Positions 50,953 to 53,453 of a DNA stretch of 63,246 bases are shown one piece after another; position 1 is the stretch's first letter, and each line of letters begins with the position of its first letter. Under the pieces are notes generated by a model. That model had not been told where the DNA came from. It was given only the letters and a program-made list of their open reading frames with translations, and searched no databases. This DNA comes from an uncultured Lachnospiraceae bacterium. GTDB lineage: Bacteria > Bacillota > Clostridia > Lachnospirales > Lachnospiraceae. The stretch is from positions 1-63,246 of the forward strand of contig CACZJF010000011.1 in the NCBI GenBank assembly GCA_902781455.1. The letters are read 5' to 3'. The translations under genes were made by a program, and so were the position numbers.

Positions 50953-51786
50953 TCATCTGCCGAATTCCTGCGCGATGTACGCGACATATCCGCCATCAGC
51001 CTGCTTGGCCATGAATACCGCCACTCCGACGGAGACAAAATCACGCTCCAGATTCGCCCGGTGGCTTGAGGAGCCAATCCAGCCTTCCAGCGTTTCCTCC
51101 GCATTCGAGAAGCCCCAGGCGAGGTTCTCGCCATATACCGGGGAATCCTTGTACTTCTTGGCCTTGGTGCCGCCAACCGTATAGTAAGGCTGGCCATTCG
51201 GCCTGGTGTGATCCGCCGGTTCCTCGAACCATGCCGACTCCACCGCCCTGACGCGGGCTGCTTCTGTCAGAACAGAATCGTTCGTCAGAGATCCCTTCCT
51301 TTTCTTGGAACGGTAAGAATTCGTCTTTGAAACAACACTGTTCGCAAATCCGTCATCAAAATGTCCCACAACCGTATCGCCTATGTTCAGAAAATACGTC
51401 GAATCGGGACTACCGCTGATCTTACTGCTGCTCAGGCTCTCAACGTGCGAACTGGAATTACCGCCTTTCTTCGGGGAAGCCTTGACATTAATCGTAGCCT
51501 TATACTGCGTTTTCTTCACCTTCGCGGTAATGACCGTTTTTCCCTTCTGCAGGCCTGTCACCTTCGCCGTGCTTCCGTTCAGGACAGTCATACGCGCAAC
51601 ATCCGGCTTCGAAATCTTCCACTTCGCATTTCCCTTGACCTTCAGGTTGACTGACTTGCCGGCTTTGATCGTCTTGGTCTTCAGCTTCTTGGTCTTCGCC
51701 ACCGCCGAGTTGGAAACGCCGAACATCATTCCAACAGCCACCAACAGTATGGTGAACAGAAGTAGTTTTTTCAGTCTCGTCTTCAT
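50953..51786 (-). CDS. Secreted protein with Ig-like (Big_2) and CAP/SCP domains
   Basis: This is a 277-residue exported protein. ATG at 51786 follows GGAGGAAG and begins a signal peptide (KTRLKKLLLFTILLVAVGMM). A Big_2-type domain covers about residues 30-105 (LKVKGNAKWKISKPDVA, AKVTGLQKGKTVITAKV). After a Ser-rich linker comes a CAP domain with HTRPNGQPYYTV, GENLAWGFSNAEETLEGW and SSHRANLERDFVSVGV, including the Glu and His of the CAP cavity. A c-di-GMP-I riboswitch lies in its leader, so the protein is probably tied to the change between motile and attached life. The function of bacterial CAP proteins is poorly known. Confidence 0.88.
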   Translation of the reverse strand: MKTRLKKLLLFTILLVAVGMMFGVSNSAVAKTKKLKTKTIKAGKSVNLKVKGNAKWKISKPDVARMTVLNGSTAKVTGLQKGKTVITAKVKKTQYKATINVKASPKKGGNSSSHVESLSSSKISGSPDSTYFLNIGDTVVGHFDDGFANSVVSKTNSYRSKKRKGSLTNDSVLTEAARVRAVESAWFEEPADHTRPNGQPYYTVGGTKAKKYKDSPVYGENLAWGFSNAEETLEGWIGSSSHRANLERDFVSVGVAVFMAKQADGGYVAYIAQEFGR

Positions 51787-51886
51787 AACTTCCTCCACTG
51801 TTGCAAAACTGCTGTACTTACAACTGCTTTTCTCCACTTACCCACTGCCCAGACAAGAGAAACGATATATATAAAAAACTTACCCT

Positions 51887-51974
51887 GATAAAAAACCACC
51901 CTAAGGCGCTCAACGAAAGAGTCAGGCACTATCGCAGTTACCGCCTGGTTCCGTCAGCCTTTTGGTGGCTTATC
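51887..51974 (-). ncRNA. Structured leader element: three-way junction closed by a terminator-like stem
   Basis: On the minus strand CCACC (51968-51964) pairs with GGTGG (51900-51896) and AAGGC (51961-51957) with GCCTT (51907-51903), followed at once by TTTTTT. Inside, CAGGC (51947-51943) pairs with GCCTG (51927-51923), topped by ACT/AGT, and a weak CTC/GAG stem follows. It lies between the c-di-GMP riboswitch and the CAP gene. It matches no riboswitch class that I recognise. Confidence 0.55.
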
Positions 51975-51976
51975 AG

Positions 51977-52001
51977 AGAAAACGATCCTTACGCATGGAT
52001 C
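51977..52001 (-). terminator. Terminator overlapping the c-di-GMP aptamer P1 stem
   Basis: GATCC (52001-51997) and GGATC (51988-51984) form a stem extended by G-T pairs and followed by GTTTTCTC. Its 5' arm uses three bases of the aptamer's closing stem, so the two folds exclude each other. That predicts that ligand binding allows readthrough. Confidence 0.55.
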
Positions 52002-52096
52002 ACCGGCAACTGGCTGCCACAGAACACTCCACATTCGTTCCAAGGCCCTTTAGTTTTGCGTCACAGCTTTTCAACTGCTTTGCCCTTAAGGATAAT
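51999..52096 (-). promoter_or_regulatory. c-di-GMP-I (GEMM-I) riboswitch
   Basis: In order on the minus strand: ATTATC closing strand, AGGGCAAA, a stem capped by a GAAA tetraloop, GACGCAAA, CTAAAGGGCC, a variable stem, GGCAGCCAGTTGCCG, and the closing GGTGAT. These are the conserved blocks of the GEMM-I aptamer in the right order and spacing, including the GNRA loop and its likely receptor. It lies about 15 bases after a predicted promoter start and upstream of the secreted Ig/CAP gene. Confidence 0.9.
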
Positions 52097-52116
52097 ATAG
52101 CTTTTTATCTAACTGC

Positions 52117-52145
52117 ACTCTACCATGTTTTCAGAAGAAAAGCAA
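52117..52145 (-). promoter_or_regulatory. Promoter of the riboswitch-controlled CAP gene
   Basis: TTGCTT (52145-52140) and TAGAGT (52122-52117) have 17-base spacing. Confidence 0.6.
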
Positions 52146-52212
52146 TAGCCAATTTTTCCGAATACATTGCAAATGTTGTACGAAAAACAGATTCGAAAAT
52201 TGTGCAGTCTGC

Positions 52213-52249
52213 AAAAAGCCGGCAGGCAGGCATTATTTGCCGCTGCCTG
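52213..52249 (-). terminator. Terminator of the antiporter operon
   Basis: CAGGCAG and CTGCCTG pair perfectly, followed by CCGGCTTTTT on the minus strand, just past the antiporter stop. Confidence 0.65.
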
Positions 52250-52256
52250 TCCCCCA

Positions 52257-53453
52257 TTATCCCTGAATTTCTCCTGCTTTCGTAAGACTCAGCTTCGTAA
52301 TGCCGGGGCCGGCCATCTCATAGACAAGCGTTCCTGCGAGAACGACTGCCCGGATCGTAGGCGCGTACTCAGGCACAACCCGCCCGGCCAGCAGCGTCAG
52401 TCCGATGGCAACACCGGCCTGCGGAAGCAGGCAGGGACCCAGATACTTTCCGACCGGCGCCGGCGTATGCGCCATGCGCGCGCCCAGCCACGCGCCGAGG
52501 AGTTTCCCGACGATGCGCCCTATGATATAGACGGCTCCGATCATGCCTGCCGTCTTCAGGACACTGATCTGCAGTCCTGCTCCGGAAGCGACAAAGAACA
52601 GGATATACACCGGAGGCGTAATGCTCTCGGCCAGTGAAAGGATGCTCCCCGCCTCCGGGCTCAGATTCGCCACTGCCGTGCCAAGCGCCATGCACAGCAT
52701 CAGTGAACTCAGGCCGAACAGATCCGCGATCCCGATCCCGACAAACAAAAATCCGCAGATCAGGGCGAGCCGGTTGCTCTTCTTGTGGAAATACCGCATG
52801 GGTATCAGAAGCAGGATACCCAGCAGACCTCCTGCAGCCAGGGCAAGGAGGATCTGGCCCGCAGGAATCAAGATCTGCAGCACCGGGTTCGATGCTCTTC
52901 CTGTCATTGCGGAAGCGGCGGCCACAGACGCGGAAAACAGGATCAGCGCAGTCGCGTCATCAATCGCGACCACCGACAGGAGCGTTGAAGTCACCGGGCC
53001 TTTCGCCTTGTACTGATTGATTACCATAATGGTTGCTGCCGGAGCGGTTGCTGCCGCGATCGATCCAAGCACCAGCGAAAACGCGGCATCGTGCCTGGTC
53101 AGCAGCAGCCCCGCGACCACTACCACCACGGCAAACAGAGACTCCATTGACGCTATGATCAAAGGAGCAGCCCCGATCTTTCTGAAATAAGAGATCCGGA
53201 ACTCATTTCCGATGGAAAACGCGATGAATCCCAGAGCCACCTCCGAAACAATGCCGATTCCCGAAACAAAGTTCTCTGAAAGAATAGAAAACGGGCACCC
53301 CAGCGCCGGAAGAAAATACGGTCCCAGAAGGAGTCCTGCCAGCAGATATCCGGTCACATTCGGCAGCTTGATATGCTTCATCATGCGGCCCATAAACATA
53401 CCGGCCAGAATCATGATCCCCAGCTGCGTAAGTGCATTCAGCGACAGACTCAT
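52257..53453 (-). CDS. CPA2 (Kef-type) cation:proton antiporter
   Basis: The 398-residue protein has about 12 hydrophobic segments. The typical CPA2 blocks are GYLLAGLLLGPYFLPALG near the start, GNEFRISYFRKIGAAPLI and SVVAIDDATALILFSASV with the paired Asp residues of the transport site. There is no C-terminal RCK/TrkA domain. Its ATG overlaps the stop of the PII-like gene, which may replace that regulatory domain. The ion (K+ or Na+) is not evident. Confidence 0.87.
   Translation of the reverse strand: MSLSLNALTQLGIMILAGMFMGRMMKHIKLPNVTGYLLAGLLLGPYFLPALGCPFSILSENFVSGIGIVSEVALGFIAFSIGNEFRISYFRKIGAAPLIIASMESLFAVVVVVAGLLLTRHDAAFSLVLGSIAAATAPAATIMVINQYKAKGPVTSTLLSVVAIDDATALILFSASVAAASAMTGRASNPVLQILIPAGQILLALAAGGLLGILLLIPMRYFHKKSNRLALICGFLFVGIGIADLFGLSSLMLCMALGTAVANLSPEAGSILSLAESITPPVYILFFVASGAGLQISVLKTAGMIGAVYIIGRIVGKLLGAWLGARMAHTPAPVGKYLGPCLLPQAGVAIGLTLLAGRVVPEYAPTIRAVVLAGTLVYEMAGPGITKLSLTKAGEIQG

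Follow-up and report, generated by a model that had tools for sequence, protein, structure and literature searches.

A c-di-GMP-I riboswitch with conserved aptamer-terminator complementarity, proposed as an OFF switch before a secreted Ig-like/CAP protein gene in Lachnospiraceae

Introduction

On a 63,246-nucleotide stretch of DNA from an uncultured Lachnospiraceae bacterium (the window), a c-di-GMP-I riboswitch aptamer lies ahead of a gene for a CAP-domain protein. The question raised by this locus is whether c-di-GMP would switch that gene on or off. The original prediction, made from the DNA letters and translated open reading frames, proposed an ON switch.

Published systems offer points of comparison. 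The Cd1 riboswitch of the C. difficile flagellar operon is an OFF switch, in which the terminator and the aptamer coexist and compete with an antiterminator formed by strands T, A, and H; in the full-length RNA an HP1 stem is formed, and the antiterminator is a transient state (PMC9262584). The class I c-di-GMP switches of C. difficile are described as OFF, and one of them serves PPEP-1, a secreted metalloprotease made when c-di-GMP is low (PMC11477304). The pilM c-GAMP riboswitch of Geobacter is an ON switch in which the terminator includes the aptamer strand (PMC9262584).

Results

A c-di-GMP-I aptamer and a terminator-like stem-loop precede a CAP-domain gene

Close orthologues of the CAP protein (E at most 4.5e-46) are present in 8 of 61 genomes, the window's own included; the seven others are designated L003–L009. 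All seven of these congeners have a c-di-GMP-I aptamer upstream of the orthologue in the same orientation. The leaders of the window and of L003–L008 were aligned (the seven leaders), and the diverged L009, whose protein is 39% identical to the window CAP protein, was treated apart. The minus strand of the window carries, in order, a promoter, the aptamer, a 5-bp hairpin (hairpin 1), a long terminator-like stem-loop with U6 (terminator 2), a 29-nt box, a Shine-Dalgarno sequence, and the CAP-domain gene (Table 1).

Table 1. Features of the riboswitch-CAP locus in the window.
Feature	Position	Strand	Basis
Promoter: -35 TTGCTT 52145-52140, 17-nt spacer, extended -10 TG-G-TAGAGT 52125-52117	52145-52117	minus	conserved, by eye
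c-di-GMP-I (GEMM-I) aptamer	52094-52002	minus	RF01051, 63.9 bits, cut-off 35
Aptamer 3' strand ('A strand') CAGUUGCCG	52012-52004	minus	9/9 pairs with 51943-51935 in 7/7 sequences
Hairpin 1 (GAUCC/GGAUC), terminator of the original prediction	52001-51984	minus	paired in 7/7, one pair altered on both sides
Terminator 2: stem GCCACC 51969-51964 / GGUGGU 51900-51895, then U6 51895-51890	51978-51883	minus	fold and conservation
Anti-aptamer strand: CGGUAACUG 51943-51935 and rest to 51893, complementary to aptamer 52056-52004	51943-51893	minus	six helix blocks, 37 pairs
Conserved 29-nt leader box GGCAGUGGGUAAGUGGAGAAAAGCAGUUG (also written GGCAGTGGGTAAGTGGAGAAAAGCAGTTG)	51849-51821	minus	93% mean pairwise identity, seven species
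Shine-Dalgarno GGAGGA	51791-51796	minus	sequence
Target gene, 277 aa: signal peptide (by eye), Ig-like (Big_2-like) domain, CAP domain	50953-51786	minus	Pfam

The Rfam covariance search, which the original prediction had proposed as the check on its GEMM-I aptamer, bore the aptamer out. The match covers model positions 1–87 in full (E 3.4e-10 over the whole window and 3.3e-12 over 601 bases) and is the sole RF01051 match found in its own genome, which is 81% complete. Mean pairwise identity of the aptamer is 0.91 over the seven species. Model position 11 is G, of the c-di-GMP type; this is the discriminating position (G20), where G rather than A marks c-di-GMP aptamers. In the bound form, AGUU of the 3' strand closes the helix 52055–52052/52011–52008 in the Rfam alignment, and the bases after AGUU include a ligand-contacting C known from Vc2 structures. 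The leader carries a c-di-GMP-I riboswitch aptamer, which would be expected to bind this ligand. No second known aptamer, as in a tandem riboswitch, came near its cut-off in 51700–52300 (Rfam, E up to 10).

The promoter-like arrangement TTGCTT-N17-TAGAGT with TG before the -10 is present in all seven leaders and recognisable by eye in L009, and the promoter originally proposed holds. A generic sigma-70 scan did not list it at 52145–52117, so it is weak by consensus. The span first assigned to the system, 51999–52145 with strand unstated, contained the aptamer and the promoter but ended before the strong terminator. Upstream of the promoter, at 52210–52160, the stretches TGCACAAATTTCG and CAACATTTG are conserved by eye in most of the seven leaders; they are possibly a regulator's operator, which would place the CAP gene under a second control. 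The upstream neighbour on the minus strand (53453–52257) encodes a Na_H_Exchanger antiporter (84.6 bits), and a small P-II-like ORF (22 bits, below the cut-off of 25) lies before it.

The target had been described as a secreted Big_2 plus CAP protein. Its CAP domain (PF00188; residues 153–269) scores 34.1 bits against the Pfam cut-off of 21.1 and a signal peptide is apparent, but Big_2 (PF02368) reaches 16.9 bits, below its cut-off of 22.8; the matched region, residues 35–100, fits an Ig-like domain. A partial match to spore_YkwD (TIGR02909) of 42.7 bits falls far under the cut-off of 171, and 4ifa_A, an SCP-domain protein, is a relative in the PDB (E 1.7e-5). Beyond the CAP gene, on the same strand, lies a Clostridiales-1 RNA (RF01699; 50158–50006, minus strand, 48.5 bits against a cut-off of 48).

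Terminator 2 is conserved and was found only in the CAP leaders

The stretch 51985–51880 folds at -41.8 kcal/mol (z -4.2), a value matched in 0 of 200 shuffles. Intrinsic terminators typically have a GC-rich stem with a run such as U6 immediately behind it. Sequence conservation is not required of a terminator; over the seven species, terminator 2 has a mean pairwise identity of 0.87, against 0.66–0.67 for the flanks, ahead of the aptamer and beyond terminator 2. When the aptamer is held in the folding model, terminator 2 has a probability of 0.99–1.00 at transcript end 51880 in all seven sequences, and hence is able to coexist with the aptamer.

A covariance model of terminator 2, R1, was built from the seven aligned sequences, which therefore match it by construction. 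Under stricter filters it matched only the seven orthologous leaders among the 61 own and related genomes, and only the window copy among 397 family genomes, a set with few congeners. Because R1 was found only before the CAP gene, terminator 2 goes with that gene as far as searched, and the same counts led us to discard a mobile or widespread RNA. A coding role was rejected on single-base indels in L003 and L006. A K-turn in the middle stem was also set aside, since its GA pairs are unconserved by eye.

The 3' half of terminator 2 is complementary to the aptamer

Helices were listed as ungapped runs of at least six pairs kept in at least six of the seven sequences, giving 44, known helices included. 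The richest of these in G-C pairs links the aptamer 3' strand to CGGUAACUG in terminator 2, and all 63 cells are paired across the seven sequences. Three pairs vary and all stay paired: one, altered on both sides, is G-U in the window, G-C in L004, and A-U in the remaining five sequences, and the two others are G-C or G-U and U-A or U-G. The score of this 9-bp helix was reached in 0 of 2000 column shuffles of either strand and in 0 of 500 against the whole downstream leader, and sliding the partner by 1–3 columns lowered the pairing to at most 62%. Dealing letters within pairs matched it in 123 of 500 shuffles, because so little varies. For the window alone, 45 of 2000 shuffles were as good by contiguous score, and p was 0.235 by duplex energy.

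When the helix was enforced in the consensus fold, it extended to 37 pairs between the aptamer 3' half and the terminator 3' half. The extra blocks are 52056–52051/51898–51893, 52048–52042/51911–51904 (one base bulged), 52039–52034/51917–51912, 52030–52026/51922–51918, and 52018–52015/51928–51925. All seven sequences keep 32 of these pairs; six sequences keep a further four, and the last pair is kept in five. The extended duplex averages -36.4 kcal/mol (0 of 300 column shuffles), and in single sequences it was matched or beaten by 3–31 of 500 dinucleotide shuffles. The terminator 3' half thus appears constrained to pair with both its own 5' half and the aptamer, a dual complementarity that would explain the identity of terminator 2 across species.

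As an antiterminator, this pairing would enclose the terminator 5' arm and leave the 3' arm outside, so that coexistence with the terminator would be possible only as a pseudoknot; it also uses the same bases as the closing helix of the aptamer 3' strand. The predicted antiterminator should therefore exclude both the liganded aptamer and the terminator. An antiterminator drawn from the 5' flank (AUCCUUA/UAAGGAU, 52093–52087/51991–51985) is good in the window and was rejected as unkept in the congeners (by eye). The terminator 5' arm and aptamer GUGGC share a 5-bp match, under the six-pair limit of the helix list.

Complementarity was surveyed at 34 family loci including the window (33 in a first pass), 29 of them drawn from the matches listed, out of well over 100. 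By z, the 3'-half complementarity of the window ranked sixth (14 of 200 shuffles) and the CAP locus of G017 second; a strong match occurred in a few loci, such as L051, and none in most. These ranks indicate that the trait is not unique to the CAP gene, and the survey does not settle the control logic across c-di-GMP-I family loci. At one surveyed aptamer (G008, L039 1501–1576), upstream of a radical SAM gene that by eye looks moaA-like, the terminator loop GGGCUGAUU is complementary to aptamer UCAGCC, a suggestive match at a shuffle p of 0.255.

Folding along the transcript is consistent with a transient antiterminator

In free transcripts ending at 51934, the 9-bp helix has a probability of 0.90–1.00 in all seven sequences. 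The seven-sequence consensus fold keeps it at 0.96–0.98 until 51898 and gives terminator 2 a probability of 0.96 at 51893; the two consensus states, at -57.7 and -59.3 kcal/mol, are 1.7 kcal/mol apart. Polymerase hides about ten bases of the transcript, so that, with the enzyme at the U run, the exposed RNA would go on favouring the antiterminator unless the aptamer is held. When the aptamer core was held, the 9-bp helix was lost and terminator 2 rose at 51892 in all seven: from 0.08 to 0.54 in the window, 0.03 to 0.84 in L003, 0.99 to 1.00 in L004, 0.00 to 0.36 in L005, 0.00 to 0.02 in L006, 0.51 to 1.00 in L007, and 0.22 to 1.00 in L008.

The rise in L004 and L006 is only 0.01–0.02, L004 preferring terminator 2 regardless, and equilibrium folding alone therefore gives no clean switch in every species. 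The free window RNA at equilibrium has the 9-bp helix at 0.08 at 51892. At 51880, where the stem has emerged completely, the free RNA of all seven favours terminator 2 (0.80–1.00). The antiterminator must accordingly be transient, which makes the model dependent on kinetic control. For the whole window leader, the best fold contains terminator 2, at a z of -0.93, no better than shuffles.

In the L009 leader the aptamer and a 5-bp hairpin are retained, and an outer CCGCC/GGUGG stem followed by U7 surrounds a longer interior. In its free fold, a counterpart helix reaches 0.82–0.92 at transcript ends 1120–1200, is absent (0.00–0.01) at 1095, 1217, and 1222, and is lost when the aptamer is held. 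Against 1080–1217, the aptamer 3' half was matched by 4 of 300 shuffles; the narrower stretch 1160–1217 is unremarkable (212 of 300), and the match is ordinary by contiguous score (248 of 500). L009 is consistent with the antiterminator model and is not independent proof of it.

Alternative readings of the leader

The original prediction took hairpin 1 as the terminator. In that ON switch c-di-GMP would stabilise the closing stem P1, P1 would take 52001–51999 from hairpin 1, and transcription would continue. Hairpin 1 does exist and is conserved (mean pairwise identity 0.76), and the pair altered on both sides counts for it. It is followed by 5–6 U in 8 bases in all seven sequences, which leaves room for a pause or a weak terminator, and pilM gives a precedent in a closely related aptamer (PMC9262584). 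As the decisive terminator, however, it fares poorly: its stem is 5 bp (-3.8 to -8.0 kcal/mol), it is missing from the output of the terminator scan, and the longest U run is 2–6, interrupted in the window, L003, L005, and L008. In L009 it is followed by AAAAA, which makes it unlikely to be an intrinsic terminator there. The claimed sharing of three bases is seen in the window under a single weak P1 (52096–52091/52004–51999, -3.0 kcal/mol) but not in L005, L006, and L008, where the best P1 (ACC/GGU) ends short of hairpin 1. With the aptamer core held, hairpin 1 stays at 0.65–0.99 in all seven (end 51892; P1 left out of the constraint). Nor does an ON switch account for the conserved terminator downstream or for the complementarity of that terminator to the aptamer. 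Taken together, terminator 2, which the original prediction missed, and the conserved 9-bp pairing extended to 37 pairs predict OFF, like Cd1. The ON reading is thus rather unlikely, and hairpin 1 is more likely a spacer or pause hairpin within the antiterminator loop.

Two other readings concern terminator 2 and appear less probable still. It could be a second sensor, an aptamer or protein site beside the c-di-GMP aptamer, its conservation reflecting binding of a second ligand. Such a role would suit the high identity and the imperfect but conserved middle stem (columns 159–166/197–204, 85.7% of cells paired), and no Rfam match near its cut-off covers the element at E up to 10, a 17-bit chance-level match overlapping its end. 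Pairing with the aptamer 3' half explains the same conservation, however, and the restriction of R1 to the CAP leaders (7 of 61 relatives, 1 of 397 family genomes) further argues that a second sensor is very improbable. The stem-loop might instead act after transcription, on how stable the mRNA is or how it is translated, through pairing of its apical loop with the box at 51827–51820; the switch would then operate by a route other than termination. The GCAGUUG end of the 29-nt box is complementary to the apical loop: GUAACUGC (51941–51934) pairs with GCAGUUGU (51827–51820) in 98% of cells, and the box is as a whole more conserved than the aptamer (93% against 91%). Yet the aptamer 3' strand is the longer partner, with nine of nine pairs in every sequence and full Watson-Crick pairing in L003, L005, L006, and L008, and U6 directly follows the GC-rich stem as in a typical intrinsic terminator. 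We accordingly give post-transcriptional action very little weight, and the preferred reading remains a transcriptional OFF switch.

The riboswitch-CAP unit occurs in genomes rich in GGDEF matches

In the genus of G000, RF01051 was found in 8 of 19 genomes, the same eight that carry the CAP orthologue; three of the eight have one extra aptamer copy elsewhere. The named records are uncultured Lachnospiraceae and Clostridia MAGs, three of them with RUG names, which denote rumen bins. GGDEF matches number 20–51 in all eight genomes with the riboswitch-CAP unit (25 in the window's own). The 11 genomes without the unit have none in nine, 2 in one, and 39 in one, the last 72% complete. Across the 19 genomes, GGDEF is thus nearly all-or-none, at 20–51 in nine, none in nine, and 2 in one.

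Flagellin_N was found in 0 of the 19 genomes, some of them incomplete, with the control positive in 4 of 14, and a link to motility was dropped on this result. A search for c-di-GMP-II aptamers gave 0 of 19, with its control also silent, a result that does not establish absence. Three c-di-GMP-I matches have A instead of G at model position 11 (L009 930–1018, L053 1501–1590, and L057 1501–1585), and one of them precedes the diverged CAP orthologue. A at that position goes with c-GAMP sensing in Geobacter.

Discussion

The aptamer match, the terminator-like stem with U6, and the conserved complementarity between them are established here. They are best accounted for by a Cd1-type c-di-GMP-I OFF switch that acts on transcription and lies before the gene of a secreted Ig-like/CAP protein, a reading to which we assign a probability of about 0.73 and in which ligand binding, termination, and direction are predicted from the leader. 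Without c-di-GMP, the loosely held aptamer 3' strand would pair with CGGUAACUG as it emerges from the polymerase, and the downstream strand would then zip into the aptamer 3' half; this antiterminator would block the closing of terminator 2 and the CAP gene would be transcribed. With c-di-GMP bound, the 3' strand would be locked in the aptamer and the antiterminator could not start, so that terminator 2 would close and transcription would stop in the U6 run. Since the antiterminator is incompatible with the liganded aptamer as well as with the terminator, c-di-GMP should turn the CAP gene OFF. On this sequence-based reasoning the ligand probably acts by OFF rather than ON, and the mechanism first proposed is probably wrong.

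A bolder form of this reading, offered tentatively at somewhat less than even odds, is that the expression platform is a near-complete mirror of its sensor. The 51-nt strand would be complementary to its own 5' half and to the whole 3' half of the aptamer, and without c-di-GMP, strand invasion over 37 pairs would unzip the aptamer. The leader would then be an extreme, conserved form of Cd1, and the CAP protein the shared riboswitch output of the c-di-GMP network in these genomes, each with 20–51 GGDEF matches and one or two c-di-GMP-I aptamers found.

The switch may be described, by analogy with the published description of Cd1, as a c-di-GMP-I riboswitch with a Cd1-like platform. Both have a c-di-GMP-I aptamer, a downstream terminator, and an aptamer strand that pairs with terminator strands as a transient antiterminator, a state predicted in the window. 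HP1 of Cd1 would lie between aptamer and terminator, where hairpin 1 lies here. Unlike the flagellar operon of Cd1, the window target encodes an Ig-like/CAP protein with an apparent signal peptide, in a genus whose 19 genomes yielded no flagellin. The pilM switch shares a homologous aptamer and transcriptional control, but its ON logic with the aptamer strand inside the terminator is that of the original prediction, which is not favoured here. PPEP-1 resembles the proposal in being a secreted protein made at low c-di-GMP, but it is a metalloprotease and the window target a CAP protein. That protein shares its CAP domain with CAP and YkwD-like proteins and differs from them in the preceding Ig-like domain and the upstream riboswitch.

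No CAP target of a c-di-GMP riboswitch was found in the open-access papers searched. The kind of switch is known; new, as far as searched, are the target, how tightly the switch is associated with it in one group, and how far the conserved complementarity between aptamer and terminator extends.

The sign of the proposed control would be reversed from that first suggested: low c-di-GMP would be the condition for making the CAP protein, and the suggested role in attachment at high c-di-GMP is left without support. The locus connects c-di-GMP with a CAP-domain protein in a group of Lachnospiraceae for which no flagellin was found in 19 genomes. The conserved two-state leader would also provide a compact example, for comparative study, of a terminator under constraint from pairing with its own aptamer.
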